Shown here in pieces: positions 6,571 to 25,940 of a DNA stretch of 64,000 nucleotides. This DNA is from an uncultured Prevotella sp. (GTDB lineage: Bacteria > Bacteroidota > Bacteroidia > Bacteroidales > Bacteroidaceae). The stretch lies in contig ONAK01000001.1 of NCBI GenBank assembly GCA_900315765.1, forward strand, positions 57,892 through 121,891. The letters are read 5' to 3'. Position numbers and translations under genes: made by a program. A model generated the notes under the pieces. That model did no database searches and was not told the DNA's origin. It was given only the letters and a program-made list of their open reading frames with translations. Numbering within the stretch: the stretch's first letter is position 1; every line of letters starts with the position of its first letter.

Positions 6571-9500
6571 GAAGGCACGGCTGCAAGCCAACATCGATGC
6601 CATCCGCACAGCCTTTGCCGTGTGGAAGGAGGTACGCATCCCCACTGAGGCCGAACGGGAAACCATTTCCCGTTATTGTGGCTTCGGTGGGCTGAAATGT
6701 GTGCTGAATCCTGTGGAGAATAAGGCAGTCTGGCCGAAGAACGACCTTCCACTGTACGACCTGACCGCCGAACTCCACAGGGTGATACGCGAGAATTCCG
6801 AGGACGAGACCGACTACAAACGCTATGTTGCCAGTATGAAGCAGTCCGTCCTAACGGCTTTCTATACCCCAAAGGAGATACCCGAAGCCATCTGGAGCGT
6901 TTTCGGTGAGATGAACCTGAAGCCGCAGAAGGTGTTAGAGCCGTCTGCGGGTATGGGTGTTTTTATCGACACCATGCGCACCGTCAATCCTGATGCCGAG
7001 GTGACCGCCTTTGAGAAGGACAAACTGACGGGTTTGTTGCTGACCACCCTCCACAAAGATGACGGAACCAAGGTACGGACTGCCGGTTTTGAGATGATAG
7101 ACAAGGAGCAGTTAGGCACCTACGACCTCGCCATCTCCAACATCCCCTTTGGTGACACGAAGGTGTACGACCCCTTCTACAGCGACAGCAAGAGCCTGTT
7201 CAACCGCGTGATTTCCAAGTCCATTCACGGTTACTTCATGCAGAAAGGGCTTGATGCCGTGCGCGACGGTGGCATGGTGGCATTCATCACGACGAGGAAC
7301 TACCTCGACAGGGAACAGAACTGTATCAGGATCAACCACCTCCTTCAGCAAGCCGACCTTGTTACCGCTTTCCGTCTGCCTGACAATCTGTTCAAGGAGA
7401 ACGCCAACACCGAGGCAGGGAGCGACCTGATCATCATTCAGAAGAACTATGCCAAGCAGGGACTGACCGAGGATGAGGAAAGGCTGAAAAGGGTGTACTC
7501 TGCCGAGGATGAGAACATCGTCCGTAACGACTATTTTGAGCATTACCCTGACAATGTGCTTGCCACAAGCATCCTGAGAGGGCACGACCAGTACGGCAAG
7601 CCCGCGCTGGAGTATCTGCATACGGGTGGTGTCGAAGGCATTGCCCATGAACTTCGTGAGCGATTACGGGACGAACTCGCCAAACATCTGGACTTCCGTA
7701 AGTTCACGGGGCTTGACAGCCCGGCCTTTATCCGCAAGGAAAAGGAAAATAAAATCCAGAAGTCCGTTGAGAAACAGAAACCAGCGGAAGAACAGGAGTC
7801 AATAGAAGCAGAACAAAAGCCAGTAGAGACAGGGCAGCAGCATGTAACGGAAGATGAGCCAGCAAAGACGGCCCAGATTGTAACGATACCAGAGCCAGCC
7901 AAGAAGGAAGAAAAGCCAGTCCCAGAGCATACGCCCGACAACAATCCGCAACTGTCACTCTTCGACCTTTGGGGGATGACCGTGCAGGAACAGCCAAAAC
8001 CGAATCAAGTACCCAAGAAGCCAAAGAAGGAACGTAAGAAGGAGCGTCAGGCCAGGAAACTGCAGGAGAAGAAGGCCGCAATGGAGAAGAAAAGCCATAT
8101 CGACCAGCAGTTGGCCGTCTATGACTCTCTGGATTGGGAAGAGAACCCGCCCATCAACGGCTTCTATGAGATGATGATGGACTTGACTCCTGAGCGTCGC
8201 CGCCAGTTGCTGGAGGCTGGACAGCAGCGCATCGAGACCAATGCGGATGCCAAAGCCAGAGAGCAGGGACAGACGGAAACCGAGCCGAAGCAGCGCCGTA
8301 CCACCAAGACAAAACTGGTAGAGCCAAAACCCTTCGAGGGTGAGATGAAGGCATACTACCGTAACGGCTCCATGGTTGAGGATAAGGACGGAAACATCGG
8401 ACATCTGGAGAAGATCACTTCCTCGGGTGCCACCTTCGTCCCCCTGATTGTTTCGCAGGAGCAGACCGACCGCATCCGCCAGTATATCGCCGTGCGTGAC
8501 GTGTATGAGGAATTGTATGCCTACGAGCAGGACAACCAGCAGGCGAATGACGAGTTGCGCGAGAAACTTAACGGCTACTACGATGCCTTCACGGCCATGT
8601 ACGGCAACTTGAACGACAGGAAGAACGTACGGATGATTCTGATGGATGCAGTGGGAAGGAACATGCTGGCACTGGAACGTGGCGAAAACGGCAGGTTTGT
8701 AAAGGCCGACTTCCTCGACCACCCCGTAGCCTTCTCCACGCAGGAACTGAAGCACGTCGATACGTCGCAGGAAGCCGTCTCTGCATCGCTCAACAAATAC
8801 GGTGTGCTGAACATGCCCTATATGTCGTACCTCACCGACAAGAGCGAGGACGACATCATCCGAGAACTGCAGGGGCAGATATTCTACAATCCGCTGACGG
8901 ACTTCTACGAAATCCGCGACAAGTTCATTGCCGGAAACGTCGTGGAGAAGGTAAGGGACATCGAGAACCTGATTGAGAAACGTGGCGGAGAGGTGGACGA
9001 CCGCATCATGGAGTCACTGAAAGCCCTGAAGGATGCCGTGCCTACGCCGATTCCTTTTGAAGACTTGGACTTCAACTTCGGTGAGCGATGGATTCCCGCC
9101 AATGTCTATTCTGCCTTTATGACCGACTTCTTCGACACGAAGGTTGACATTGTCTATTCGCCGCAGATAGACCAGTTCGATGCCAGTTGCGCCCAGAAGA
9201 ATGAGAAGATATGGACTGAGTTCTGTGTCCAAGGTGAGTATCGCAGGTATGACGGTATAGCCCTGCTGCGCCATGCCCTGCACAACACGACACCGAAAAT
9301 CATGAAGTCGAACGGCAAGGATGACAACGGCAACGACATCAAGGTGCCTGATGCACAGGCCATCCAGTTGGCAAACTCGAAGATTGATGAAATCCGCAAC
9401 GGCTTCACTGAATGGCTTGAAAGCCAAAACCGTGAGTTCAAGGACAGACTGGCACAGATGTATAACGAGAAGTTCAACTGCTTTGTCCGCCCGAAGTACG

Positions 9501-12460: not shown

Positions 12461-14698
12461 ATGAAAAGAACAAAGTTTGACCTCTTACTGACAAATGCTG
12501 TCAACATCTTACTATTTATAGGAGTATTTATGTTTGGCTACTGGCGGTGGCAGAAACTGGAGAATATCATTGTTGAGTCAACAAATAGCCAGGAACAATA
12601 CAGAATCATTCATGCTGCACTGAAAAGCACAATACAGTTAGATCACTTGGGCGAACAGGTATCAGAATGGTCCCCGACAGATTCTGTTGAATACCAACAA
12701 AAATTGGTAGAAACAAACAACTCGCTTGACGGACTGCGCAAATATTACTCCAAAAGCCAGATTGACTCCATGCAGAACATCCTTAACCAAAAAGGGCACC
12801 TGCTGTCCGAAATCTACGCGACAATCGTCAAGCGGAATGAGAATGACGAGCATCTGCGACAGGACAGACAAGTCACTGTCAAGGACACGGAGACTTATGT
12901 CAAGCATTACACCGGGCATGTGTTCAGGAGCAGCAGGGAAGAAGTGACCTCAAGGAGCAAGAACAGGACGGTCACCGTGCCGTCCGTCAACGAACTGGCC
13001 TTTCTTGACAAAGAACTATATACCATCAGTCTCAGTGTTCTCAGCGACAGCCTCGCCGAAGTCAACCGTTGGCTGGATATCAACGTCAGCCAGATGCTTG
13101 ATGCGGAGGATGCCAAAGCCGAACGCAATCAGAAAGAGTTGATGGATAAGGCAAGCGGTATCGGAAAGACCACGTTCAGATGGGGTATGTTGTTCCTCAT
13201 TTTCGTAGCACTACTGAATGTGGCTAACACATGGCGGCGCTCAAAGGTGATGAAGGAACTCGAAAAAGAATCTGATAAGAACAAAAAACTCGTGGAGAAG
13301 CGCCGACAGATGATGTATGCCATCGTCCACGACCTGCGCACCCCGCTGAGCATCGTCATCGGCTACAACGATATGGCGAAACAATGCCCAACGAAGAATG
13401 AAAAGTACGTCAGTGCCATATCGTTCTCCGCCCGGCAACTCAGGGGGATGATAGACCAGTTGTTAGACTACTTCCGTTTAGAAAGCAACAAGGGTGTGCT
13501 GAAGCCGAGGAACTTCAGCCTGATGGAACTGGCCAACGAACTGACCAATTCCTTCGAACTGAGAGCCGACGAGCGACTGATAGAATTCGTAAAGCCGAAG
13601 GTGCAGGGCATCGTCCTCAACGGCGACTATGAGAAAATCTGCCACATAGTGACCAATCTGCTTGACAATGCCTTCAAGTTTACCAGGAAGGGCAGTGTGG
13701 AACTGGATATTTCGTATGCCGACGATACGCTGAACATCAAGGTGAGCGACACAGGCATTGGCATCAAGGATGAGGACAAGGAACGGGTGTTCTCTGCCTT
13801 TACCCGCTTCTCCAATGCCGTTGCCACTGGCAAGGAGGGCTTTGGCATCGGACTTTCAACGGCCAAGATGCTCGTTGACCTGATGAAAGGCAAGATCGAT
13901 TTTGAGTCTTCGGACATGGGGACCACATTCTGCGTAAGTCTGCCGATGAAGATTGCGGAGAGCAAGGGGGATGCGGTTGTGGCGGAGGTCATGAAAGCCT
14001 CGGAGGAGCGGAAACATGTGCTGGTGGTTGACGACAGCAACGTGTGGCTGCTGATGATACAAGGTGTTCTGCAGCAGAACGGTTTCGACTGTGACGTGTG
14101 CAGCGACACGGCAAAATTCTTCACAATGCTCAGGAAGGGCAATTATTCTGCGGTTATCATGGATCTGCAGATGCCGGGAAAGAACGGGCGGGAACTGCTG
14201 GACGTCATGAGGGAGGGTAAGGTTGCCAACAGCCAGACGGTTCCCGTGATAGTCTCGACGGCATCAGGCGAGGAAGTGCGCGAGGAACTGCTGAAGGTGG
14301 GATTCGACGAGTATCTGCCCAAGACGGCTGACATCAGCGAGATGGTAAATGTGGTGAACCAAGTGATAGCCGAGAAAAGCAAGACGGTGACACCAGACTT
14401 CACGAAACTGCGGAAATCCGTAGCAGGGTATCTGATAGAAGAGACCGAGGATGCTGTCGCAGGGCTGCACAATGCCGTCAAGACTATGGACTTCGACGAG
14501 ATGAGGAAGTGGGCGCATTGCCTGAAGACAAGTTGGCTGCTCTATCGTGTCAGCATATTGGTTGATCCCATCATGGAGGTGGCACGGAGTAAAGACATAA
14601 GCGCCTATAATCGTCTGGTGTCCTATATGGCTGAGATAGACAAGATGGCGAAAATCATCATCACAAAGGCGAAGGAGATACGGGGACACGAGGGATGA
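12461..14698 (+). CDS. rteA: RteA-like hybrid sensor histidine kinase
   Basis: A 745-residue inner-membrane kinase. A first membrane segment (about residues 10-28) and a second (about 237-253) enclose a periplasmic helical sensor. Then come the HisKA domain with the H-box AIVHDLRTPLS (about residue 291), and a HATPase domain with N-box TNLLDNAFKF and G-boxes DTGIGI and GFGIGLS. A receiver domain follows (VVDDSN, with the phosphorylated Asp in VIMDLQMPG), and a C-terminal Hpt-like region (AHCLKTSW). In CTnDOT, RteA senses tetracycline-linked conditions and phosphorylates RteB. The stop overlaps the start of the next gene by 4 nt. The input signal is unknown, as tetQ is absent. Confidence 0.85.
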   Translation: MKRTKFDLLLTNAVNILLFIGVFMFGYWRWQKLENIIVESTNSQEQYRIIHAALKSTIQLDHLGEQVSEWSPTDSVEYQQKLVETNNSLDGLRKYYSKSQIDSMQNILNQKGHLLSEIYATIVKRNENDEHLRQDRQVTVKDTETYVKHYTGHVFRSSREEVTSRSKNRTVTVPSVNELAFLDKELYTISLSVLSDSLAEVNRWLDINVSQMLDAEDAKAERNQKELMDKASGIGKTTFRWGMLFLIFVALLNVANTWRRSKVMKELEKESDKNKKLVEKRRQMMYAIVHDLRTPLSIVIGYNDMAKQCPTKNEKYVSAISFSARQLRGMIDQLLDYFRLESNKGVLKPRNFSLMELANELTNSFELRADERLIEFVKPKVQGIVLNGDYEKICHIVTNLLDNAFKFTRKGSVELDISYADDTLNIKVSDTGIGIKDEDKERVFSAFTRFSNAVATGKEGFGIGLSTAKMLVDLMKGKIDFESSDMGTTFCVSLPMKIAESKGDAVVAEVMKASEERKHVLVVDDSNVWLLMIQGVLQQNGFDCDVCSDTAKFFTMLRKGNYSAVIMDLQMPGKNGRELLDVMREGKVANSQTVPVIVSTASGEEVREELLKVGFDEYLPKTADISEMVNVVNQVIAEKSKTVTPDFTKLRKSVAGYLIEETEDAVAGLHNAVKTMDFDEMRKWAHCLKTSWLLYRVSILVDPIMEVARSKDISAYNRLVSYMAEIDKMAKIIITKAKEIRGHEG

Positions 14699-16041
14699 GT
14701 AAGGTAATAGTCATTGACGACATGAAATCCTACTGCGATTCCGTCTGCGCAACACTGGCGGATTTCGGGATAGAGGCTGTTGCCTGCCAGACTGTCAAGA
14801 AAGCCAAGTGGCTTATTGAACGGGCTGGCAGGAACGACGTAATCTTGGCCGATCTCATGCTGAATGATGAGAGCGGAAAGAATGGCACTGACATTCTGCG
14901 TTGGATGCGGAAGCAGGGGTATCATCAGTTATTCTTCCTGATGACAAACTACGGCACGATGGAAAACTCAATTGAGACGATGGAACTTGGTGCCAAAAGT
15001 TATATCCCCAAGCCGCAGATGGACGAGAAATTCTATGCTAGGATTAAATGCATCATGGAAGAGCAGAATCTTCGTGACAAGCACAAGAACCGCCTGATGT
15101 TCAGGCGCAACAGCCAACCTTTTCTGGCTCTTTATGAGAGGCTGAAGGGCTATGTCGGTCTGGATCTCCGTCTTGTAGTCGTTGGTGAGAGCGGGACAGG
15201 CAGGAGCCATCTGGCAGAGGACTATATGGCAATGGAGGGCTTCCATTATGGCGACTATGCCCACGTTAGATGCAGCGCATTGGCTGAAATGGAGCATGTG
15301 GAGGACTATTTCTTCGGACATCAGAAAGGTGCATACGCCAGTGCCGTACAATCAACCGACGGCATTCTGGAGAAAGCACGTGACAGTTTCCTTTTCTTGG
15401 AGAACGTCGATGAAATGCCCTTGAGTGTACAGAATTTGCTTAAAGAGGTGATAGAAACAGGGGAATACTGTCGTATTGGCTCATGCAAGAAGCGTTTTGT
15501 TGATTTCAGACTTATATGCACTTCCGCAAAATCTCCCGATGAACTTGTCAGAGAGGGCTTAATGACGCAGCATTTCCGGGATTGCATCTGTGAGGAGGTA
15601 GTCAATATTCCACCGCTAAGGGAAACGGTGACAGACATCGTACCAATGGCAACATTCTTTTTGGAACACTTTGACGAAAGGCGCAGGCTAAGCAGTAAAG
15701 CCAAACATAAACTGGAGGCATATCCCTGGCCGGGGAATGTGCGTGAACTTGTGAGGGTAATAGAACTGGCGGTTAAGAAGTATGATTGCGACAAACTCCA
15801 ACCAGAACACCTTACCTTCTCTCTTCAAGAAGCGCCAGAAATACCCACGACTATGAAACTGAATGATGAGAGCGAGGAAAAGGCAAAAATAGTCAAGGCA
15901 CTTGAATCATGTGGATACAGGCGAGAACCTGCCGCAGCCATTCTTGGCATCAGCAGACGTAACTTGTTTCAGAAGATGAAAGACTATTGTATTGAGGTTC
16001 CTAAAAATCACACTAATCCAGAACCTGTTATAAAATCTTAA
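14695..16041 (+). CDS. rteB: RteB-like NtrC-family response regulator
   Basis: A 448-residue regulator. The receiver domain (VIVIDDMKSYC; phosphorylated Asp in VILADLML) is followed by a sigma54-interaction AAA+ domain with Walker A GESGTGRSH and Walker B-like FLFLENVDEM. A Fis-type HTH lies at the C-terminus (AAAILGISRRNLFQKM). The sigma54 contact loop GAFTGA reads GAYASA, so it is degenerate. In CTnDOT, RteB activates rteC. Here the next backbone gene, an RteC-like protein, lies 13 kb away because a cargo island separates them. The 4-nt overlap with rteA shows one operon. Confidence 0.85.
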   Translation: MSKVIVIDDMKSYCDSVCATLADFGIEAVACQTVKKAKWLIERAGRNDVILADLMLNDESGKNGTDILRWMRKQGYHQLFFLMTNYGTMENSIETMELGAKSYIPKPQMDEKFYARIKCIMEEQNLRDKHKNRLMFRRNSQPFLALYERLKGYVGLDLRLVVVGESGTGRSHLAEDYMAMEGFHYGDYAHVRCSALAEMEHVEDYFFGHQKGAYASAVQSTDGILEKARDSFLFLENVDEMPLSVQNLLKEVIETGEYCRIGSCKKRFVDFRLICTSAKSPDELVREGLMTQHFRDCICEEVVNIPPLRETVTDIVPMATFFLEHFDERRRLSSKAKHKLEAYPWPGNVRELVRVIELAVKKYDCDKLQPEHLTFSLQEAPEIPTTMKLNDESEEKAKIVKALESCGYRREPAAAILGISRRNLFQKMKDYCIEVPKNHTNPEPVIKS

Positions 16042-16063: not shown

Positions 16064-16083
16064 ATTACCCTTTCGGGTAGTGA
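16064..16083 (+). promoter_or_regulatory. Palindromic operator box 1 (E1-like gene)
   Basis: The sequence ATTACCCTTTCGGGTAGTGA contains the palindrome TACCC-N4-GGGTA (16066-16079). The -7 box TACCTTTG starts at 16103, 37 nt after the palindrome start. The same 37-nt geometry recurs at boxes 3 and 5. That places the operator near -44, typical of an activator site. Confidence 0.8.
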
Positions 16084-16133
16084 TTATTTCATTTTATGCA
16101 TCTACCTTTGCATCCAAATTTAAATAATACACA

Positions 16134-16901
16134 ATGGAAGAAAGGTATAGCAGAAATCGGATTTATGTGAGTGAACAAGAACAGGAAGTAGTAAGGAATA
16201 CCAAACTCCTTTTTGGTGGGGCTGGTATTGGAAGTATTATTGCGGAATGTGCCTTGCGATTCGGCTTTGAGAACATTACGATTATAGATGGAGACAAGGT
16301 TGAACTAAGCAACTTGAATCGGCAAAACTACACACAGAATGATCTTGGAGAATACAAAGCTGAGAGTTTAGCCAAAAGATTGCTTACAATTAATCCACAA
16401 GCAAAGATCAAGTATCACACAACATTCCTATCGAAAGAGAATGTGAGAGATTTTATGGAGGACTGTGACATTGCTGTTAATGCTTTGGATTTTAAAGATG
16501 AGACGCCATTTGTTTTTGATGAGATCTGTAAAGAAAGAAATATCCCCGTGTTACATCCTTACAATTTCGGATGGGCAGGTTTTATGTCAATCGTTAGGCC
16601 AGACGGATTACAACTTTCGCAATTGAATAAAAGTTCTGATTCTCCTATCGGTTTTGAATTGAAAGTTGCCGATTATGTCACTGGCTATGGAGCATTTTGG
16701 CATGATTCTAAAGAATGGTTAGAAAAAATAGTTGAAACATACAAAGAAGAAAAGGATATTCTACCTCCTCCCCAACTGGCTATTGCCTCATGGATTACGG
16801 CAGGTTTTTGCGTAAATGCCATGTATAATTTAGCGACAGGCAAGGAAGTGAAGTACTTTCCTAAGTTCTATTTATCTTCATTGTTGGAAGATAGGAATTG
16901 A
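16134..16901 (+). CDS. ThiF/E1-like adenylyltransferase
   Basis: A 255-residue protein of the ThiF/MoeB/HesA fold. It shows the nucleotide-binding loop GGAGIG (residues 28-33), the acidic IIDGD (50-54), and the conserved NLNRQN (60-65) that binds ATP in E1-type enzymes. A second acidic site lies in VNALDF. The CxxC zinc pairs and a catalytic cysteine region of MoeB/UBA1 are not obvious. Such stand-alone E1 domains activate a carboxylate as an acyl-adenylate; in peptide pathways such as microcin C7 (MccB) or pantocin (PaaA) they modify the precursor. Box 1 drives it alone, in the same putative regulon as the acyltransferase and precursor operon. The substrate is unknown: the precursor or the acyltransferase product are candidates. 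Confidence 0.82.
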   Translation: MEERYSRNRIYVSEQEQEVVRNTKLLFGGAGIGSIIAECALRFGFENITIIDGDKVELSNLNRQNYTQNDLGEYKAESLAKRLLTINPQAKIKYHTTFLSKENVRDFMEDCDIAVNALDFKDETPFVFDEICKERNIPVLHPYNFGWAGFMSIVRPDGLQLSQLNKSSDSPIGFELKVADYVTGYGAFWHDSKEWLEKIVETYKEEKDILPPPQLAIASWITAGFCVNAMYNLATGKEVKYFPKFYLSSLLEDRN

Positions 16902-16913
16902 GTTAGTTATGAT

Positions 16914-17672
16914 TTACAACAATCCGTAGCTTGTAGCGTATGACAATGCTTCTGTGATATTTTTAACCCCTAGCTTGTCAAAAAGGTTGCGTCTATAGAA
17001 TTTTATTGTATCTACAGACTTGCACATGTGATCGGCTATCTCATCACGGTTAAATCCTTGTGCTGACAAAACCAATACATCTTTTTCTTCGGAAGTTAGT
17101 TCTACTTTCTCTTTTTCTTTCCATTTGTGTGAGAGACGAGAATACTCCCATATACGATCGTCGCCAGACATACGGAATTCTATGTGTCCGGCGGAAGCGT
17201 GAGGTGATAATGAGACAACACATAACCCTAACCAGGTCCTTCCATCTTCCGTCATAACGAGAGGAGTTATCTTATGATTGATTAACGTAGAGTGCTTTCC
17301 ATTCAGGATATGGAAATCGTATGAGATAATACACTTCCGTCTTTGACTTAGTGGGAACTTATTAAAGAAATTGAATCCTGACTTGTTTATTTCTGCTAAC
17401 ATGCTATGTTCTTCTTTAGGCACATTGCTGATATAAAATAAATAGCCCATTTCCAACAGTTCTTCAGGAGTATATCCACATAGGAAAAGTGGATTGTCAG
17501 ATACATATAGAAATCCCTTCTTAAAGTAGTCGATAACATAGACACTTTGATAAGTCGAACGCGAAAATGAATCCACGGCTCGAAGTAACACATCCAGATC
17601 TCTATAATTTTCTTCTGTTACAGAATCTACTGAGTTTGCTTCTATAAAGAAATCCTCTACTCTAATATCCAT
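16914..17672 (-). CDS. PAS-LuxR transcription regulator
   Basis: A 252-residue cytoplasmic regulator. A PAS-like sensor domain covers about residues 35-155 (FLYVSDNPLFLCGYTPEELLEM is a typical PAS opening). A LuxR-type HTH covers residues 190-252 (LTSEEKDVLVLSAQGFNRDE, then KSVDTIKFYRRNLFDKLGV). It is convergent with the E1-like gene and divergent from the acyltransferase gene. Palindromic boxes lie in both intergenic regions and at the precursor promoter, so it is the natural candidate for binding them. A box also lies between its own promoter and that of the acyltransferase, so autoregulation is likely. It lacks a recognisable AHL-binding domain, so the ligand is unknown. Confidence 0.85.
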   Translation of the reverse strand: MDIRVEDFFIEANSVDSVTEENYRDLDVLLRAVDSFSRSTYQSVYVIDYFKKGFLYVSDNPLFLCGYTPEELLEMGYLFYISNVPKEEHSMLAEINKSGFNFFNKFPLSQRRKCIISYDFHILNGKHSTLINHKITPLVMTEDGRTWLGLCVVSLSPHASAGHIEFRMSGDDRIWEYSRLSHKWKEKEKVELTSEEKDVLVLSAQGFNRDEIADHMCKSVDTIKFYRRNLFDKLGVKNITEALSYATSYGLL

Positions 17673-17691
17673 TTGACTATGATTTTGGGTG

Positions 17692-17699
17692 CAAAGATA
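17692..17699 (-). promoter_or_regulatory. -7 box (TATCTTTG) of the PAS-LuxR gene
   Basis: The minus strand reads TATCTTTG 20 nt upstream of the start codon. The nearest operator (17730-17743) starts 44 nt upstream, not 37 as at the three other promoters, so its effect here may differ. Confidence 0.6.
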
Positions 17700-17727
17700 C
17701 GAAAAATATCAATAATACCAGGCGGTA

Positions 17728-17745
17728 TTTACCCAAAAGGGTAAT
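17728..17745. promoter_or_regulatory. Palindromic operator box 2
   Basis: TACCC-AAAA-GGGTA (17730-17743) lies between the divergent regulator and acyltransferase promoters. Its start is 39 nt upstream of box 3, the same spacing as between boxes 4 and 5. Confidence 0.75.
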
Positions 17746-17766
17746 ATTTAAAGGAGTTTTAACCTA

Positions 17767-17813
17767 ATTACCCTTTCGGGTAGTGAAAAAGTGCTAATCT
17801 CTCTATACTTTTG
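17767..17813 (+). promoter_or_regulatory. Operator box 3 and -7 box of the acyltransferase gene
   Basis: The 20-nt box at 17767-17786 is identical to box 1. The -7 box TACTTTTG is at 17806-17813, 37 nt after the palindrome start at 17769. Confidence 0.8.
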
Positions 17814-17829
17814 GAGAAAAATTTTAGGT

Positions 17830-18459
17830 ATGGAGACAATTATTAATGTTATGCCAAAGTATGAGATAAGCATTGCAAATCAGGAATGCTTAGAAGAATT
17901 ATCTCGTTTTGTCGTTGAAGAGAACTACAAGCATCATTCAACAAATCCTCCAAGTAAGGAAAAACTGGAATCAGATGTCATGACTATATATAATGAAGAA
18001 AAGGCGTTATATTCCGATACATCTAATATATATATAGCTCGATACGATCATAAAATGATAGGATCTATAAGGGTTTTCAAATGGGATAGAAAAAAAGAAC
18101 TTCCAATAGAAAGGATGTATGGTATTAATCCTTTAAAGACAATATCTCATGAAAAATATGCGGAATACTGGCATATAGGAAGATTTGCAATTGATTCATC
18201 CATTGATATTTCTCCTGTTCAATTATTTAAGCAACTCATGATATATGCTGTAACTCCTATTATGAAAAGTGAAAATGGATATATGGTGGCGGAAGTTGAT
18301 GCAAAATTGTTGAAAGTTGTCAATGCATTAGGGATTCATACTATTAATTTGGGGGAATCAATATACTATCTATCCTCAGAGACTATCCCAATATATGCAA
18401 GTCAGGAAGGTATCACTCCCTTCTATCAACATTATCATAGTTTGTACAATTGTGCATAA
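17830..18459 (+). CDS. LuxI/FeeM-like GNAT-fold acyltransferase (candidate signal synthase)
   Basis: From ATG 17830 the protein has 209 residues; the upstream in-frame start lies inside the promoter and is rejected. The topology follows autoinducer synthases and N-acyl amino acid synthases. It has an N-terminal helical part, the strand pair IYIARYDHKMIGSIRVFKW, and the motif YWHIGRFAIDSS. A helix (LFKQLMIYAVTPI) follows, and then LLKVVNALGI with LGES. In LuxI proteins the motif is W-E-[LI]-S-R-F; here the Arg and Phe are kept but the Glu is His, so the amino substrate probably differs from S-adenosylmethionine. It has its own operator-bearing promoter. A role making a small acyl signal for the neighbouring LuxR protein is an attractive inference, not shown. 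Confidence 0.65.
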   Translation: METIINVMPKYEISIANQECLEELSRFVVEENYKHHSTNPPSKEKLESDVMTIYNEEKALYSDTSNIYIARYDHKMIGSIRVFKWDRKKELPIERMYGINPLKTISHEKYAEYWHIGRFAIDSSIDISPVQLFKQLMIYAVTPIMKSENGYMVAEVDAKLLKVVNALGIHTINLGESIYYLSSETIPIYASQEGITPFYQHYHSLYNCA

Positions 18460-18478
18460 TTACCCGTTCGGGTAATTG
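18459..18478. promoter_or_regulatory. Palindromic operator box 4
   Basis: TACCC-GTTC-GGGTA (18461-18474) lies directly after the acyltransferase stop codon and 39 nt upstream of box 5. It has no -7 box at 37 nt, so it is the distal box of a tandem pair. Confidence 0.75.
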
Positions 18479-18497
18479 TAGAATAAAGAAACCACCA

Positions 18498-18544
18498 ATT
18501 ACCCTTTTGGGTAGTGAGTATAATAAAAGATGTAGATAATTTTG
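18498..18544 (+). promoter_or_regulatory. Operator box 5 and -7 box of the precursor operon
   Basis: The 20-nt box (18498-18517) differs from boxes 1 and 3 by one base. The palindrome starts at 18500 and the -7 box TAATTTTG at 18537, again 37 nt apart. Transcription should start near 18551. Confidence 0.8.
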
Positions 18545-18578: not shown

Positions 18579-18620
18579 CAGACCATACTGGATAAAAGGA
18601 GCGGAAACCGAAAAGCTTAA
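18579..18620 (+). repeat. Conserved 5' leader element, copy 1
   Basis: The core ACTGGATAAAAGGAGC, preceded by AGACC and followed by an AAGCTTA, recurs at 24828-24866 in front of the toxin operon. It lies inside the transcribed leader of the precursor gene, 30-70 nt before its ATG. Confidence 0.7.
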
Positions 18621-18650
18621 AGAGTAGGTAGAATAAATAATAGATTAGTT

Positions 18651-18803
18651 ATGAAGAATAACATTGAATTGCTAAAAGCAGAAGAACTTGAAAACATTAA
18701 AGGCGCATTTGCCGTATCTGTTACGACCTACGGCTTAAATGTTCAAGGAGTGTCGAATTGCTGCAATACGACAACGCCGACGCAACCTACAAAAGAAGAA
18801 TAA
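18651..18803 (+). CDS. Double-glycine leader peptide precursor (RiPP/bacteriocin-like)
   Basis: A 50-codon gene too short for most gene callers. Residues 1-19 fit a double-glycine leader exactly: Leu8 (-12), Glu12 (-8), Leu13 (-7), Ile16 (-4), Gly18 (-2), Ala19 (-1). Cleavage after Ala19 would release a 31-residue core beginning FAVSVTTYG. The core has a Cys-Cys pair at residues 37-38, a Thr/Pro-rich stretch after it, and the end TKEE. Leaders of this type are cut by C39 peptidase exporters; Bacteroidota natural-product precursors beside radical SAM maturases look alike. The gene follows an operator-bearing promoter and precedes a radical SAM/SPASM gene, a barrel and a C39 transporter. Core identity and modification are unknown. 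Confidence 0.85.
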   Translation: MKNNIELLKAEELENIKGAFAVSVTTYGLNVQGVSNCCNTTTPTQPTKEE

Positions 18804-18897: not shown

Positions 18898-20253
18898 ATG
18901 CTAAAGAAAGATATAAAACAAACCATCTCATCCGATTGGATATTAAGGCATGATCCCTATTATAAGGATATGTATTCTATGTATAATATTTGTGACAGAA
19001 GTTTGCTGAATTTAACACCTGCGGCTTATTCTCTTCTAAAATTGTTCTACTATAATGCTATATCAATTAACGAAGCAGAGGAGTACCTTCATTCGCATAA
19101 TGTAGACATGGATTTATGCTCTGTCATAAATTTGTTTTCAAAGCCTAATATTCCTGAAATTTTAATTCCTTCATCAAAGCCCTTTCATATTGAATCACAA
19201 AGAGTCAAAACGTTTGAAGGATTTAAAGTCCCAATAGCATCGACTCCTATAGATGCAGAATTACTATTAACTCATAATTGCAACCTCAATTGTAAACATT
19301 GTTTTCAATCCTCGTCTTTGAATAGTGACACTCGTATTCAGCTTCCTGCCGAGACATGGTATAACATCTTTAAACAATTCGAAGAATGTAATCTTTATAG
19401 TGTTGTAATTAGTGGAGGCGAACCTATGATGTATAAAGACTTTGAGATATTGCTTCGAAAAGTAATTGAACTTCGCCTTAGTATCAACATTTTAACGAAT
19501 GGCATGCTTATTACCCCAAAGAATATTGACATTTTTTCCAGAAGAAATGTTTGTGTTACAGTCTCTGTTGATGGTCACAATTCACAAACTCATGATTACC
19601 TAAGAGGCAGAGGAGCATTTGAGAAAATAGAGACCATAATAAAACTTTTAGTAAAAAAGGGTGCTTCTGTTAATATTGCACATACACTTCATCGATATAA
19701 TTATGAATATATAGAAGATTTTATTAAATATGGAATAAACAACGATATTAAAAATATTTCTATTAATTTTATAGAACCAGAAGGACGCGCTTCGCATAAC
19801 AAAGCTATGATATTAAACCAAGAGCAAGAGCATCTCTTATATAAAAGAATTAAGGAGTTGTCAGAGAAGTATAATAAAGAAATCTCCCTTGATTTTCCAA
19901 ATATGTCATATAAGAGTAATATGAACGGGGTGGGGAATTCCAATCTTATATTTTGTTCTGCAGGAACAAAAAGGGTTGCAGTCAGTTCCGATGGTCGTTT
20001 ATACCCTTGCGTATATGCTATTGAACATCCAGAACTTGAAATTGGGGATTTAAAGGGACATCGTCTTATAGACTTATGGACCAATCACTCATGGGACATT
20101 TTTAGGGGAGGTATAGAACAAGAAAAGATAATTGGATGTTCCACATGTGACCTGAAAAGTGCATGCAGTATAAAAAACTGTAGAATCAAATTCTACTCAA
20201 AAGAGTCTGGGCTATATTCTAAGCCGCGTAATTGTTTCAAGGACAAATTGTAA
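18898..20253 (+). CDS. Radical SAM/SPASM peptide maturase
   Basis: A 451-residue enzyme. Residues 1-115 form an N-terminal domain of the kind that binds leader peptides in RiPP maturases (RRE/PqqD-like, not certain). The radical SAM core starts with ELLLTHNCNLNCKHC, giving the CxxxCxxC cluster at Cys128, 132 and 135; the GGEP motif is at 173-176. The C-terminal SPASM region holds seven cysteines (353, 371, 414, 417, 423, 428, 446) for auxiliary iron-sulfur clusters. The family installs thioether, C-C or epimer modifications on peptides. Directly behind the precursor gene, it most likely modifies the Cys-Cys or nearby residues of the core. Strongly AT-rich, unlike the next gene. Confidence 0.9.
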   Translation: MLKKDIKQTISSDWILRHDPYYKDMYSMYNICDRSLLNLTPAAYSLLKLFYYNAISINEAEEYLHSHNVDMDLCSVINLFSKPNIPEILIPSSKPFHIESQRVKTFEGFKVPIASTPIDAELLLTHNCNLNCKHCFQSSSLNSDTRIQLPAETWYNIFKQFEECNLYSVVISGGEPMMYKDFEILLRKVIELRLSINILTNGMLITPKNIDIFSRRNVCVTVSVDGHNSQTHDYLRGRGAFEKIETIIKLLVKKGASVNIAHTLHRYNYEYIEDFIKYGINNDIKNISINFIEPEGRASHNKAMILNQEQEHLLYKRIKELSEKYNKEISLDFPNMSYKSNMNGVGNSNLIFCSAGTKRVAVSSDGRLYPCVYAIEHPELEIGDLKGHRLIDLWTNHSWDIFRGGIEQEKIIGCSTCDLKSACSIKNCRIKFYSKESGLYSKPRNCFKDKL

Positions 20254-20263
20254 ATGTATCATA

Positions 20264-22570
20264 ATGAGAAATAATATATTGTTAATTGTCTGTTGTTTGA
20301 GAATAGGTATTGCTCAAGGGCAGAATATTATAGGCTGCATCATCGACGAGCAATCGAAGCCTATGCCATTTGCCAATGTTGTGTTAATCAACCGCGCGGA
20401 CTCTGCTTTCGTATCGGGTGCAGTAACAAAAGACGATGGAACTTTCATCATAAATACCGATAAACAAGACGGACTGCTGAAAGTGTCGAGCGTAGGATAT
20501 GTAATAAGGTATGTCGATGCGAAGCAGGGCAACGTCGGCGACATCGTAATGCAGCCCGACACGCAGATGTTGAGAGAGGTGACGGTGAAAGGAAGCATTC
20601 CAACTCATAAACTGACAGCCGAAGGCTTGCAGACCAACGTGGAAAACACCATTTTGAGCAAGCTAGGCACTGCTTACGATGTGCTTGCCCATATACCGGG
20701 CTTGCAGAAAAACGGCGATGATTATAGCGTGTTTGGCAAAGGCACTCCTATCTTCTACATCAACGGAAGGCTGGTGCGCAACCAGACAGAACTCGACCAA
20801 CTAAAATCGGAGAACATTAAGAGCATCGTACTCGTCACTTCTCCTGGTTCACGTTACGATGCGTCAGTCCGTGCCGTAGTAAAGATAAAGACCAAGTTGC
20901 CACAAGGAGAGGGTTTCAGTTTTGACAACCGCCTTGTATATGGTCAGTCTGAAAATGCTGATTTGATAGAACAACTTAACATAAACTATCGTCATCGCGG
21001 ACTTGATGCCTTTGGAATGTTGTACTTCTCCAGTAGCGAGGGGTTTAATCGGGCAGATATAGAGCAAGACATTCAAGCCGACACTATCTGGCATCAGTCA
21101 AACACAAATGATTACAACTACCGCCATAAGTGGCTCGGTGGGGAAGCGGGGCTAAACTACGTCATTAACGATGAGAATTCCATAGGTTTCCGATACAACA
21201 TTTATCAGCAATTGAATACCGATGAATATGATACGTTTACAAGTATATTGACAGCCAACGGAAAGCCCTACGACAAGTTAAACAATTCATCAACTTTCCA
21301 GAACAGGGCAACCCCCATGCACTCGGCAAACGTCTATTACAATGGAGTATTAGGGAAAACGACGATCGACTTCAATGCCGACTGGAAGCAGACAGACAAA
21401 ACCTACAATAGTGCCTATACAGAAACAAGCGAGGATTTCGGCAATCGTTTGCTCAACACTTCTAGCCATATCAAAAACCGTCTTTATGCCGCAAAACTTG
21501 TAGTCGGGCATCAGCTGCTCGGTGGAAACCTCGACATAGGAGGCGAATATACGAACACCCACCGCAACGATGATTACGTCAATCCCGAAGGTTATCTGTC
21601 TTCAAACTTTATAGAGCTGAAAGACCAAAACATGGCCATCTTTGCCGCCTACACCCACAAGATACCTATAGGCACGGTGATGGCGGGACTTCGCTATGAA
21701 CACGCCTCTTTTGACTACTATGCAAACGGCTGCTATATGAAAGAGCAAAGCCGTACGTTCGACAACATTTTCCCAAGTCTCTCAATGACTGCACAGATAG
21801 GCAAGGTGCAAGGTCTTGTCAGTTATACAGCCAAAATCCGCCGCCCAAATTACAGCGAACTCAATGGCAATATGTCCTATGCCAACCGCTTCACTCTGCA
21901 AGTCGGCAATCCATTCCTCAAACCATCCATCATTCACAACATATCACTACAGGCCATGTGGAAGATTTGGAGCCTCAGCGCTGACTACACCGATACGCGA
22001 AACGACATCATAGACTGGACTGAACAGCAAGAAGGAAATACGGCAGTCTCTATCCTGGGCAAAAAGAACATCAAGAGTCTGAAAAACGTTTCAGCTTATC
22101 TTGTTGCCGCTCCCAAGGCAGGATTCTGGCATCCGCAGTTCGTTGCAGGACTGAGCAAGCAATGGCTCACCCTACAGACAGCCAGCGGCAGCATACGGAT
22201 GAACGCTCCTATATTCCTCGGTCAGATGGCAAACACATTCCAGTTTACCAGCACCCTCATCGGCGACCTTACCATGAAGTTTACCAGCAAGGGGGATGAC
22301 AAGAACATCTCGCTGATGCGGAATATGTTTCAGACCAATATAAGTCTGACCAAAACATTCTTTGAACAGCGCCTCTCCATAAGACTTGCCGGCTACGACC
22401 TGTTCCATGCCAGACAGAAGATAAAGCTGTATAACCAGCAGATGCAATTAGTGCAAGACAACAGCCTTGACACTCGCTATGCAGAAATAACCATTCGCTA
22501 TAAGTTTAACGCCGCCCGCTCGAAATATAAGGGCACAGGGGCTGGAAATGATGAAAAAAGAAGATTGTGA
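20264..22570 (+). CDS. Outer-membrane beta-barrel protein with carboxypeptidase-like domain
   Basis: A 768-residue outer-membrane protein. A signal peptide (first about 20 residues) is followed by a carboxypeptidase-regulatory-like beta-sandwich (about 21-100: GCIIDEQSKPMPFANVVLIN). A TonB-plug-like domain follows (about 115-215), then a long barrel of the OMP_b-brl type. It lies 10 nt after the maturase and its TGA overlaps the ATG of the exporter, so it is translationally coupled with both sides. In this operon it could be the outer-membrane exit or uptake channel of the peptide. Its base composition is visibly richer in G+C than the maturase and exporter genes around it, which hints at a separate origin. 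Confidence 0.82.
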   Translation: MRNNILLIVCCLRIGIAQGQNIIGCIIDEQSKPMPFANVVLINRADSAFVSGAVTKDDGTFIINTDKQDGLLKVSSVGYVIRYVDAKQGNVGDIVMQPDTQMLREVTVKGSIPTHKLTAEGLQTNVENTILSKLGTAYDVLAHIPGLQKNGDDYSVFGKGTPIFYINGRLVRNQTELDQLKSENIKSIVLVTSPGSRYDASVRAVVKIKTKLPQGEGFSFDNRLVYGQSENADLIEQLNINYRHRGLDAFGMLYFSSSEGFNRADIEQDIQADTIWHQSNTNDYNYRHKWLGGEAGLNYVINDENSIGFRYNIYQQLNTDEYDTFTSILTANGKPYDKLNNSSTFQNRATPMHSANVYYNGVLGKTTIDFNADWKQTDKTYNSAYTETSEDFGNRLLNTSSHIKNRLYAAKLVVGHQLLGGNLDIGGEYTNTHRNDDYVNPEGYLSSNFIELKDQNMAIFAAYTHKIPIGTVMAGLRYEHASFDYYANGCYMKEQSRTFDNIFPSLSMTAQIGKVQGLVSYTAKIRRPNYSELNGNMSYANRFTLQVGNPFLKPSIIHNISLQAMWKIWSLSADYTDTRNDIIDWTEQQEGNTAVSILGKKNIKSLKNVSAYLVAAPKAGFWHPQFVAGLSKQWLTLQTASGSIRMNAPIFLGQMANTFQFTSTLIGDLTMKFTSKGDDKNISLMRNMFQTNISLTKTFFEQRLSIRLAGYDLFHARQKIKLYNQQMQLVQDNSLDTRYAEITIRYKFNAARSKYKGTGAGNDEKRRL

Positions 22571-24616
22571 TGAAAAAAATTCCCTTTTTTAAACAGTCAG
22601 ATTCCATGATGTGTGGTGTCGCATGTTTACAGATGATATGCAAATATTATGGCAAGAGTTATAGCCAAAGATATTTGAATGAAATATGTCATGCAACAGT
22701 AGAAGGGGTATCATTGCTTGCCATTAAAAAGGCAGCAAATAGACTTGGATTTGAAACAACTAATGGACGGCTTTCTACAGAGGAATTGCCTAATATGGCA
22801 TTACCTTGCATTTTGCACTGGAACCAGAACCACTTTGTTGTCCTATATAAAGTAAAGAAGGAACGCAAGTTTTACATAGCCGACCCTGGGAAAGGATTGA
22901 TAACTTACACAATAGATGAATTCAAACAGCATTGGATAGAAATGGGACAAGGGAAAGAAGGAAAAGGAATTGCCATGTTTCTTGAGCCAACACAGGCTTT
23001 TTATGAAAATTCTGGCGAATACGAGTCAAGAACAGACAAGCCTTTCAAATTCTTGTTCGGTTATATCAAGCAATACCGTAAGTATTTCTTCCAAATAATA
23101 CTTGGCTTGTTTGTTGGAAGCCTTCTACAACTCGCATTGCCATTCCTTACCCAGAATATCGTCGATATTGGCATCAAAAACAAAGATATAGGTTTCGTCT
23201 GGCTCATTTTGATAGGGCAACTTGTTATCACACTCAGCCGGACATCAGTTGACTTCATCCGTAGGTGGCTCTTGCTGCACATCTCAATGCGCATCAATAT
23301 ATCATTGGTAAGCGACTTCTTTATCAAGTTGCTACAACTTCCCATGTCGTTCTTCGATACGAAGTTGATGGGTGATTTGATGCAGCGTATCGGTGATCAT
23401 TCGCGAGTTAACTCATTCCTGACACAGCAGACGTTAAATGTGGCTTTTTCCTTAATTAGTTTTGCTGTGTTCAGTTGTGTGCTGTTGGTCTATAACAGGC
23501 TCATCTTCTTAATATTTCTTATTGGAAGTATTCTGTATGGCGGATGGATGGCACTGTTTTTGCGACGTCGTAAGGTTATTGACTATGAACTCTTTGAGCA
23601 ACAGGCAGCAAACAACAATAAAACCTATCAATTTCTAACCTCCATGCAGGAAATAAAACTTCAAGATTGTGAACAGCGCCGACGCTGGGAATGGGAGGAT
23701 GTGCAGGCAGACCTGTTCCATATTCAGATGAAGAGTCTGAAACTCCAGCAGACGCAGGAGGCTGGAAGTATTTTTATCAATGAATTGAAGAATATCATCA
23801 TTACCGTCGTCTCAGCTACTGCAGTCATTAATGGAAGCCTTACACTTGGTATGATGTTGGCCGTGCAGTATATCATTGGCCAGTTAAACAGTCCTATAGA
23901 GCAACTTATGCACTTCATATACTCTATACAGGACGTAAAAATAAGCCTTGAGCGTATCAATGAGATTCACAAAAAGGACAATGAAGAAGATTTCAATCGT
24001 TCAAGAACTGATTTTGACAATGAAAGTCATGATATAGAATTGAGTAATATTGACTTCAAGTATGACCCTCATGCCTTATCCAAGACCATTGAAGGCGTAA
24101 ACATACATATCCCAGAGGGGAAAATCACGGCTGTCGTGGGCGCATCAGGAAGTGGCAAGACCACACTGATAAAACTCATGCTGGGGTATTACCCGGTAAT
24201 GAATGGTGAAATAACAATTGCTGGCCACAACATATCCGAATACAACTTGAAATGGTGGCGACGGCAATGTGGTGTTGTCATGCAAGATGGTGTCATCTTC
24301 TCTGAGTCTATTGCAAGGAATATTGCGGTTGATGATGGCGAGATAGATGAGGAAAGACTTGAAATGGCTCCTTGATGAAGCGACAAATTCTTTGGATGCA
24401 AGCAATGAACGAGCCATTGTAGATAATTTGGATAAGTTCTATAAAGGTAAGACCGTTGTGGTAGTAGCACATCGTCTGAGTACAGTGAAGAATGCGGATC
24501 AGATAATCGTCTTGGATAAGGGCAAGGTGGTTGAGACAGGAAATCACAAGTCCCTGACAGCAAAGAGAGGAGCGTATTATAATCTTGTAAAGAATCAGTT
24601 AGAATTAGGAAATTAA
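22570..24616 (+). pseudogene. C39 peptidase ABC exporter, broken by a deletion/frameshift
   Basis: The first frame (22570-24375) gives a C39 peptidase domain with Cys15 (QSDSMMCGVACL), His in HWNQNHFVVLY and Asp in IADPGKG. A six-helix ABC membrane domain follows, then an ATPase start with Walker A GASGSGKTTL and a Q-loop (VVMQDG). After EERLEMA the frame stops. The rest of the ATPase (LLDEATNSLDASNERAI onward, to 24616) is in the +1 frame. The LSGGQ-type signature and the first half of Walker B, about 50 residues in normal homologues, are gone. As written the ATPase cannot be complete. The peptidase half is intact and may still be made. A sequencing or assembly error is the alternative. Confidence 0.8.
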
Positions 24617-24827: not shown

Positions 24828-24866
24828 AGACCTAACTGGATAAAAGGAGCAATGCCAGAAGCTTAT
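24828..24866 (+). repeat. Conserved 5' leader element, copy 2
   Basis: CAGACC-TA-ACTGGATAAAAGGAGC followed by GAAGCTTA matches the leader of the precursor gene (18579-18620). It lies 45-80 nt before the toxin ATG. No TAnnTTTG box was found between the HlyD stump and this element. Confidence 0.7.
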
Positions 24867-24908: not shown

Positions 24909-25940
24909 ATGAGAAAAAAAATTTTAATGTCCTTTTGTGTTGGACTAGTATCCGTATTTATTATTTCGTCTTGTTCAAAAGACGAATTTGAAGTAGAAAC
25001 ACTGAAATCTATCAACGAACATACCATTAGCCAGGTTCAGAGCGAGTGGGAATGGGATGAGTCATACCATCCGAAAATGAGTACACGCTCGATTAATGAG
25101 AGTTATGAATTTGTGCCTATTGGCATTAAAAACGTGTATGCAGGTATGATACTAAAGGGCGATGAACTTAATAATGGCAAAATGATACCAATAACAGAGA
25201 AAGCCGATCCTTTAGGACTTGTGTTCACTGTTCCAAGTTTTTATATCGGATGGCTACAGCAGCCCAACTATATCAGTTATATGGGAGAGTTTAAGAAAGC
25301 GTTAAACAATGAAGACTTCTCTGGCCAGCAGATTGAGGAGTTTGAGTATGACTTAAAGCAGTTCTCGAAATATAGCGAGATGAAATTGGCATTTGGAGCT
25401 AATGTGGACATCTGCTCCATCCTGAAGATAGAGGGTAGCTACGAATCCAATAAGATTCAGCATAAGACAGGACTCTTTGCCAGGGTTTGCCAGAAAAACT
25501 TTGATGGCGTTATTGACTATCCTGATGATGGCAACATCTTCAACAACAATAGTAAGCTCTCAAAATATCCGAATGCTGTGTATGTCAACAGCATCACCTA
25601 TGGCAGAATGGCCATCATCTCTATTGAAAGCGACTCATCATATAACGCAGTTAAGTCTGCCTTCAAGATTGCCTTGAACATCAAGAAGGTGAACGGCGAG
25701 ATATCGATGGATGCACAAGCTAAGAAGTTACTCCAAGAGGCAGATATCCGTATCTGGATCAGAGGTGGCAATGGAGCAGATGTTGTTAAGACCATTGCAG
25801 GTTTCGACGAATTTGCTAATTTCATTGTCAATGGCGGAACGTTTACTAAAGACGTACCGGGTCAGCCCATCTTCTGCACAGCCAATAGAGCTGACGATAA
25901 TTCTGCATTTGCTCTACAATTTGATACAGATAACAAATAA
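24909..25940 (+). CDS. CDC-like pore-forming toxin, short component (CDCL-S)
   Basis: A 343-residue secreted lipoprotein: signal peptide with lipobox IISSC, and an acidic stretch (SKDEF) after the Cys that could serve as a surface-export signal. The body matches the MACPF/CDC core of thiol-activated cytolysins. It has the YVNSITYGRMAIISIES strand (like YVSSVAYGR of perfringolysin), then IWIRGGNGADVVKTIAGF and PGQPIFCTANRADDNSAFA (like the PISYTxxFLxDN strand). It ends right after this core, so the membrane-binding domain 4 is lacking, as in short components of two-component CDC-like toxins. Those from Bacteroides kill related bacteria. The next gene is the long partner. Sequence similarity to known CDCLs was judged by eye. 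Confidence 0.85.
   Translation: MRKKILMSFCVGLVSVFIISSCSKDEFEVETLKSINEHTISQVQSEWEWDESYHPKMSTRSINESYEFVPIGIKNVYAGMILKGDELNNGKMIPITEKADPLGLVFTVPSFYIGWLQQPNYISYMGEFKKALNNEDFSGQQIEEFEYDLKQFSKYSEMKLAFGANVDICSILKIEGSYESNKIQHKTGLFARVCQKNFDGVIDYPDDGNIFNNNSKLSKYPNAVYVNSITYGRMAIISIESDSSYNAVKSAFKIALNIKKVNGEISMDAQAKKLLQEADIRIWIRGGNGADVVKTIAGFDEFANFIVNGGTFTKDVPGQPIFCTANRADDNSAFALQFDTDNK

Follow-up and report, generated by a model that had tools for sequence, protein, structure and literature searches.

A putative LuxI/LuxR-like signalling module with phased operator boxes ahead of a Prevotella biosynthetic cluster

A 64,000-nucleotide stretch of DNA from an uncultured Prevotella sp. (assembly GCA_900315765.1, contig ONAK01000001.1, positions 57,892 to 121,891; hereafter the window, in which position 1 is the first letter) carries a gene for a LuxR-type helix-turn-helix (HTH) regulator between genes for an E1-like enzyme and a FeeM/LuxI-like acyltransferase, together with five palindromic boxes at fixed distances from three promoters. 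We are moderately confident that these elements form a self-amplifying signalling module resembling LuxI/LuxR, in which the regulator would activate from about -42.5. Judged from sequence patterns, the boxes are very probably the operators of this regulator and the regulator likely activates, while for the proposal that the acyltransferase and the E1-like enzyme make its signal our confidence is slightly lower than for the reading as a whole. The features concerned, with lengths in nucleotides (nt) and amino acids (aa), are:

16066-16079: putative operator box TACCCTTTCGGGTA of the E1-like gene, by motif match
16103-16110, + strand: -7 box TACCTTTG for the E1-like gene; offset from the box start 37 nt
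16134-16901, + strand: E1-like (ThiF-fold) enzyme, 255 aa; Pfam ThiF 118.3 bits (cut-off 28.1); family of the solved chains 9egb, 9egc and 9egd
16914-17672, - strand: LuxR-HTH (GerE) regulator, 252 aa, with a PAS-like-looking N-terminal sensor domain; GerE 45.4 bits (cut-off 23.5); alignment of 21
17692-17699, - strand: the regulator gene's own -7 box TATCTTTG; offset to the box at 17730-17743 is 44 nt (family-wide offsets 44-46)
17730-17743: putative distal operator box of the acyltransferase promoter, also the proximal box for the divergent regulator gene, by motif match
17769-17782: putative proximal operator box for the acyltransferase; spacing to the distal box 39 nt
17806-17813, + strand: -7 box TACTTTTG of the acyltransferase gene
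17830-18459, + strand: FeeM/LuxI-like acyltransferase, 209 aa, proposed signal synthase; FeeM 23.5 bits (cut-off 27), Autoind_synth 15.1 bits (cut-off 24)
18461-18474: putative distal operator box of the precursor operon, by motif match
18500-18513: putative proximal operator box of the precursor operon, by motif match
18537-18544, + strand: -7 box TAATTTTG of the precursor operon

The box pattern TACCC-N4-GGGTA has five exact matches in the window, at the positions 16066, 17730, 17769, 18461 and 18500 that a preliminary description of this DNA had listed, and eight matches when one mismatch is allowed, compared with a mean of 0.67 and a maximum of 3 in 100 shuffles. With offsets counted from the box start and TAnnTTTG as the -7 pattern, TACCTTTG, TACTTTTG and TAATTTTG each begin exactly 37 nt downstream of the proximal box, which is the distance that had been claimed for all three promoters. 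The near-identity of the surrounding 20-mers was likewise recovered (those at 16064 and 17767 are the same and that at 18498 deviates by one base), as was the second box 39 nt upstream at two promoters (17730/17769 and 18461/18500). In the same genome (3.45 Mb, 140 contigs) the exact motif occurs at nine places, five of them in the window, and the reversed motif, used as a control, occurs at four. None of the four places outside the window, two of which lie under long open frames, has a TAnnTTTG at 37 nt on either strand.

The same geometry recurs beside relatives of the regulator. Twenty fetched stretches (18 from the regulator search and two from the acyltransferase search) and the window regulator gave an alignment of 21 sequences (A1), and 103 loci were compared, namely the window stretch and L044-L145, of which the species-collection part, retrieved with the A1 profile, comprises the best 80 of at least 564 relatives, with two viral loci in addition. 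At up to one mismatch, box-to-box distances peak at 39 nt (55 pairs) and 38 nt (21), with minor peaks at 49 nt (8) and 50 nt (7), while the distance from box to TAnnTTTG peaks at 37 nt (54, with one at 36 nt and two at 38 nt) and has secondary peaks at 44-46 nt. A looser box definition yields 78 pairs at 38/39 nt, 51 at 49/50 nt and 60 TAnnTTTG at 37 nt, compared with 1-4, 2-6 and 0, respectively, in five dinucleotide shuffles of the loci. The three nearly identical 20-mers might suggest chance palindromes or recently duplicated promoter DNA; however, the shuffles fail to yield this geometry and the arrangement is kept with other box letters in L048, where five TACAC boxes stand at the window's distances beside a regulator with the helix TYKR, so that this explanation is hardly credible.

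The two offsets from box to -7 element divide between target genes and the regulator gene. Of the 54 promoters with a 37-nt offset, none is followed by the regulator gene within 150 nt, whereas 22 of the 25 with an offset of 44-46 nt are, which suggests that a box acts on target genes at one distance and on the regulator gene at another. The regulon thus appears to include the regulator gene itself; the three target transcripts of the preliminary description are supported, but it had overlooked this fourth promoter (TATCTTTG, 44 nt).

Box letters appear to follow the recognition helix of the neighbouring regulator, though few of the changes are independent. A tree was built from the 101 of 103 regulators that were long enough (L132 and L145 were left out), 93 of them with usable boxes. 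Loci with only TACCC boxes (36 rows) encode the helix FYRR in 28 cases, FYRK in seven and VYRK in one, and hence [FV]YR in 36 of 36, while [FV]YR occurs in none of the 18 rows with only TACAC boxes and, as FYRR, in one of the 39 rows with mixed boxes (L143), or in 1/57 for the latter two classes combined. For example, L116 and L131 are nested in a clade with the helix FYRRQ and TACCC boxes but carry HYRRQ (F to H) and TACAC boxes. A one-residue rule, in which Arg at window residue 227 alone sets the box class, was rejected, as Arg accompanies TACAC boxes in L061, L063 and L116/L131. The combination of [FV]225 and R227 fits the box class better than R227 alone, with both phylogenetically independent pairs as a rule in the expected direction for [FV]YR (2.0 of 2) and 0.7 of 2 for Arg alone. 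Another protein could in principle bind the boxes, such as a host factor or the sigma-54-type response regulator (14695-16041) that, with a hybrid histidine kinase, adjoins the module directly upstream (12461-16041). However, the boxes stay with the LuxR-HTH gene and its promoter, and vary with its recognition helix, at loci where the other neighbours differ, which leaves such a binder very improbable. The recurrent geometry and the co-variation with the helix together support the earlier proposal that the adjacent LuxR-HTH protein controls a regulon of three target transcripts, and they argue for the palindromes as its operators.

The position of the boxes suggests activation. TTG is found 18-25 nt ahead of TAnnTTTG, the usual position of the -33 element, at no more than 5 of 60 distinct promoters, a rarity that stands without a comparison set of unrelated promoters. 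TAnnTTTG has been placed at -12 to -5 (available text of PMC9723704), and with the 37-nt offset the centre of the target box would therefore fall at about -42.5. On this model, the E1-like gene, the acyltransferase gene and the precursor operon would be switched on by a dimer of the regulator that sits on the proximal box in place of a -33 element. Two of these promoters would be strengthened by a further dimer bound 38/39 nt upstream, a spacing that at other loci is longer by one helical turn (49/50 nt), and the tandem pair, read from the opposite side at 44-46 nt, would tune the regulator gene. Repression from the same boxes, which overlie the -33 region and lie at a different offset (44-46 nt) at the regulator's own promoter, appears improbable given the scarcity of the -33 TTG, the box centre at about -42.5, where activators that contact the polymerase are placed, and the distal boxes at 38/39 and 49/50 nt, whose separation by one helical turn fits activation.

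GerE was matched by all 21 aligned regulators. The PAS label of the preliminary description is only weakly backed, as a PAS model (PAS_3) matched one of the 21 (E 0.0022) and the label otherwise reflects the appearance of the N-terminal domain. The autoinducer-binding domain was not among the 12 families matched at E <= 0.01 in the 21 regulators, no receiver domain was found in the regulator, and the longest match of the regulator profile in the Protein Data Bank (PDB) was 3clo, over profile residues 97-252. Relatives occur in 30 of 201 family genomes at E <= 1e-15, the window's own included, where the window regulator is the single match at this threshold; the species collection contains at least 564 stretches with a relative. 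Regulators of this family commonly have tandem boxes beside them, and LuxR-type control with tandem boxes is thus not unusual in the Bacteroidota, contrary to what had been claimed. The plasmid collection yielded seven records, the best of them a 45% relative in Riemerella, and the viral collection two loci (L144 and L145), in which the regulator is accompanied by a divergent short gene, E1-like by eye, and mixed TACAC/TACCC boxes serve both directions.

The acyltransferase and the E1-like enzyme are closely tied to the regulator. A search with an acyltransferase alignment (A2) gave 24 distinct places, the window's own counted once, and recovered the enzyme in 12 of the 399 genomes searched in the family and in 11 of the 395 searched in the phylum (E <= 1e-15 for the phylum). 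At 22 of the 24 places the regulator, checked by profile, is the divergent neighbour of the acyltransferase, and at a further one (L049) the acyltransferase gene is split, its N-terminal piece being the divergent neighbour of the regulator and the other piece lying approximately 4 kb away. The E1-like gene adjoins the acyltransferase gene at 19 of the 24 places, and the order E1-regulator-acyltransferase is kept at 17 of 18 complete places, including L049, with L174 differing. At the five loci without an adjacent E1-like gene, this gene lies approximately 9-12 kb away in four and on other contigs in the fifth. The E1-like enzyme was found in 12 of the 395 phylum genomes (E <= 1e-50), including all 11 with the acyltransferase, and in the twelfth (G059) an acyltransferase fragment remains (L057). 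The last of the 24 places is the second acyltransferase-E1 pair of one genome (L169, 1447-2932), with both genes on the same strand and no regulator within 1.5 kb on each side.

Promoters of these genes share the window's layout. Across the 23 loci with a regulator, a box with up to one mismatch and a -7 element at 37 nt were found at 12 of 17 E1 promoters (those of the five loci without an adjacent E1-like gene and one at a contig end were left out), 15 of 23 acyltransferase promoters, 13 of 22 regions behind the acyltransferase (that behind the split gene was left out) and none of 23 regulator promoters, compared with 2 of 2300 windows drawn at random from these loci. If the -7 element is disregarded and every box with at most one mismatch is counted, the corresponding values are 15/17, 22/23, 18/22 and 19/23, with 297/2300 in random windows.

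The families of the two enzymes suggest the chemistry of a candidate signal. FeeM (PF21926) was matched at E <= 0.01 by 17 of 22 aligned acyltransferase relatives and Autoind_synth by one of 22. Comparison of the E1 profile with solved structures placed 9egb and 9egc in the same family as the window protein (308 bits); after 9egb-9egd, the best named PDB relative is tRNA threonylcarbamoyladenosine dehydratase (TcdA), and MccB is also present. No paper citing the codes 9egb-9egd was found, and these three entries carry a generic name only; they suggest that the E1 family has been studied by someone, and its chemistry may be published elsewhere. By analogy with FeeM and TcdA, the two enzymes probably make a small signal molecule jointly, such as an N-acyl amino acid that is activated with ATP by the E1-like enzyme and perhaps ring-closed. 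The N-terminal domain of the regulator would sense this signal, closing a LuxI/LuxR-like positive loop that switches on the natural-product cluster behind it.

Alternatively, the boxes could be the operators of the regulator while the two enzymes, instead of making a signal, modify the peptide product, and the regulator responds to another cue. Both enzymes lie within the presumed cluster for a ribosomally synthesised and post-translationally modified peptide (RiPP) and share its regulation, MccB, the E1-like enzyme that acts on a peptide in microcin C7, is among the E1 relatives, and most of the 103 regulator loci have no local synthase. However, the enzyme pair stays constant while the product class shifts between radical S-adenosylmethionine (SAM) RiPP, lanthipeptide and non-ribosomal peptide synthetase (NRPS), the acyltransferase gene has the regulator gene as its neighbour at 22 of 24 places, or 23 if the split gene is counted, and the enzyme genes have promoters distinct from that of the biosynthetic operon. 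Such a constant front end ahead of varying cargo chemistry is easier to reconcile with signalling than with tailoring, and the tailoring explanation was kept as a rival but is disfavoured, and in our judgement unlikely.

Several observations weigh against the reading as a LuxI/LuxR-like module. The total number of boxes does not exceed that of the shuffles (1256 versus 1355-1405), so that only the geometry is enriched and box number was rejected as evidence. The loci are related, were drawn from the top 80 among at least 564 relatives and include at least one contig that is apparently present twice (L044 and L138), and the counts are therefore not independent events. Similarly, the minimum number of box-class changes on the tree is six, most rows come from few clades, only two independent pairs lie on well-supported branches, a number at which a sign test cannot reach significance, the FYRRQ sisters nearest to L116 and L131 lack usable boxes, and seven rows with Arg (L061, L063, L116, L131, L141, L143 and L144) have TACAC or mixed boxes. 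In addition to the lack of a comparison set for the -33 TTG, the random windows that served as control for the promoter counts are not promoters, and the 37-nt geometry is missing, at up to one mismatch, from 8 of the 23 promoters of the acyltransferase. The window acyltransferase scores below both the FeeM and the LuxI-family cut-offs, and a sequence search found no relative of it in the PDB. Finally, no E1-like gene and no acyltransferase gene turned up within 3 kb at 86 of the 103 regulator loci, some of which are short stretches or end near the regulator, and in L066 an acyltransferase lies beyond this range.

The 86 loci without a nearby synthase imply that the regulator can work without a local one. 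At many of them, an outer-membrane barrel gene lies under tandem boxes 49/50 nt apart; the barrels were confirmed by Pfam in L073, which has a 50-nt pair, and L133. Regulators of this kind may listen to the same signal or to others. L066 (7889-16754; Segatella baroniae B14), whose regulator is 99% identical to that of the window, has TACCC pairs in two positions and, ahead of an outer-membrane-type gene in the same cluster, a pair of TACAC boxes, placing two operator classes side by side.

Behind the acyltransferase, the window encodes a putative RiPP-type cluster:

18598-18630, + strand: cis-regulatory RNA motif of the DUF805b type within the precursor operon's 5' leader (RF02914, 39.8 bits, gathering score 35.6)
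18651-18803, + strand: 50-aa RiPP-type precursor; open frame, no Pfam or NCBIfam match at E <= 0.1
18898-20253, + strand: radical SAM/SPASM maturase, by family match
20264-22570, + strand: outer-membrane beta-barrel protein (OMP_b-brl_3), by family match
22567-24375, + strand: peptidase C39 ABC exporter; the frame stops inside the ATPase domain, with a further piece open at 24347-24616

As the C39 frame is interrupted, export by this cluster may be defective. There are two exact copies of the 16-mer ACTGGATAAAAGGAGC, one before the precursor (18587-18602) and the other before the gene at 24909 (24835-24850). A second DUF805b motif above the cut-off lies outside the window (G000:C86:46306-46341), with a weaker one directly before it; none reached the gathering score in seven relatives scanned, and the RNA was dropped as a component of the regulon. 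The kinase/response regulator pair at 12461-16041 resembles RteA/RteB of CTnDOT-type elements, and this resemblance suggests that the cluster may be cargo of such an element.

The genes behind the acyltransferase vary between loci. Radical SAM clusters occur in the window, L048 and L172 (with SPASM in the window and L172), LanB and LanC in L180, a sugar epimerase in L189 and, by eye, lipoprotein-like genes in L171 and L187. A leader peptide with a sub-threshold NHase_alpha match (NHLP-type) and export genes follow in L177, and L179 and L184 look alike by eye. In L183 an NRPS follows, with a NusG-like gene (8220-8753) in between, whose product is perhaps a processive antiterminator for the long operon. 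Pfam gave no match for the scanned proteins of L174, L176 and L181 or for the first one of L188, and a LanC-like identity was not borne out for the genes that directly follow that of the acyltransferase in L174 and L188.

The operator code TAC[C/A]C-N4-G[G/T]GTA, with 37 nt to the -7 box and a second box 38/39 or 49/50 nt upstream, could be used to find targets of a large family of Bacteroidota regulators, and the helix residues offer swaps for testing box specificity. If the signal reading is true, the module would provide a gene-level quorum-sensing system for the Bacteroidota and a hint of how silent peptide clusters could be switched on. According to the available text of a review (PMC10838665), pure cultures of several rumen Prevotella showed no acyl-homoserine lactones. 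Our judgement is evenly divided on the wider proposition that the Bacteroidota have their own LuxI/LuxR counterpart, with a two-enzyme signal pathway in which the FeeM-like acyltransferase is joined by an E1-like enzyme activating or cyclising the N-acyl amino acid, a LuxR-HTH receptor whose portable operator code stands before interchangeable RiPP, lanthipeptide and NRPS clusters, and synthase-less relatives that act as listeners on outer-membrane genes. A literature search, which did not extend to subscription papers, found no paper naming these boxes or the three-gene module in the title or the opening of the abstract.

Parts of the module resemble known systems. Like the Bacteroidales RiPP clusters described in PMC10352776, the window has a precursor, a radical SAM enzyme, a C39 exporter and an outer-membrane protein; unlike it, the available text of that paper names an HTH gene and a kinase/regulator pair, contains no mention of LuxR, ThiF or acyltransferase and has no description of the boxes. 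The regulator shares the GerE HTH with NarL/LiaR/VraR-type proteins, and the half-site TAC[CA]C resembles the NarL heptamer, given as TACYYMT in the available text of PMC4886647, but no receiver was detected, the N-terminal sensor is of another kind and the box arms are 4 bp apart. FeeM N-acyl amino acid synthases (PF21926) are the best sub-threshold match of the acyltransferase, which falls under the curated cut-off and, unlike them, is paired with a regulator and an E1-like enzyme. The E1-like enzyme has its adenylating core in common with TcdA and MccB, and the TcdA reaction suggests that it could close a ring. In comparison with LuxI/LuxR of Proteobacteria, the window regulator has no detected autoinducer-binding domain, the acyltransferase scores below the LuxI and FeeM cut-offs, and the module has an additional E1-like enzyme, another box sequence, tandem boxes and a Bacteroidota promoter. 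However, both systems have a synthase-like acyltransferase gene beside and divergent from that of a GerE-HTH regulator; putative operator boxes precede the synthase-like gene here, and the predicted box centre agrees with the position of the lux box near -42.5.

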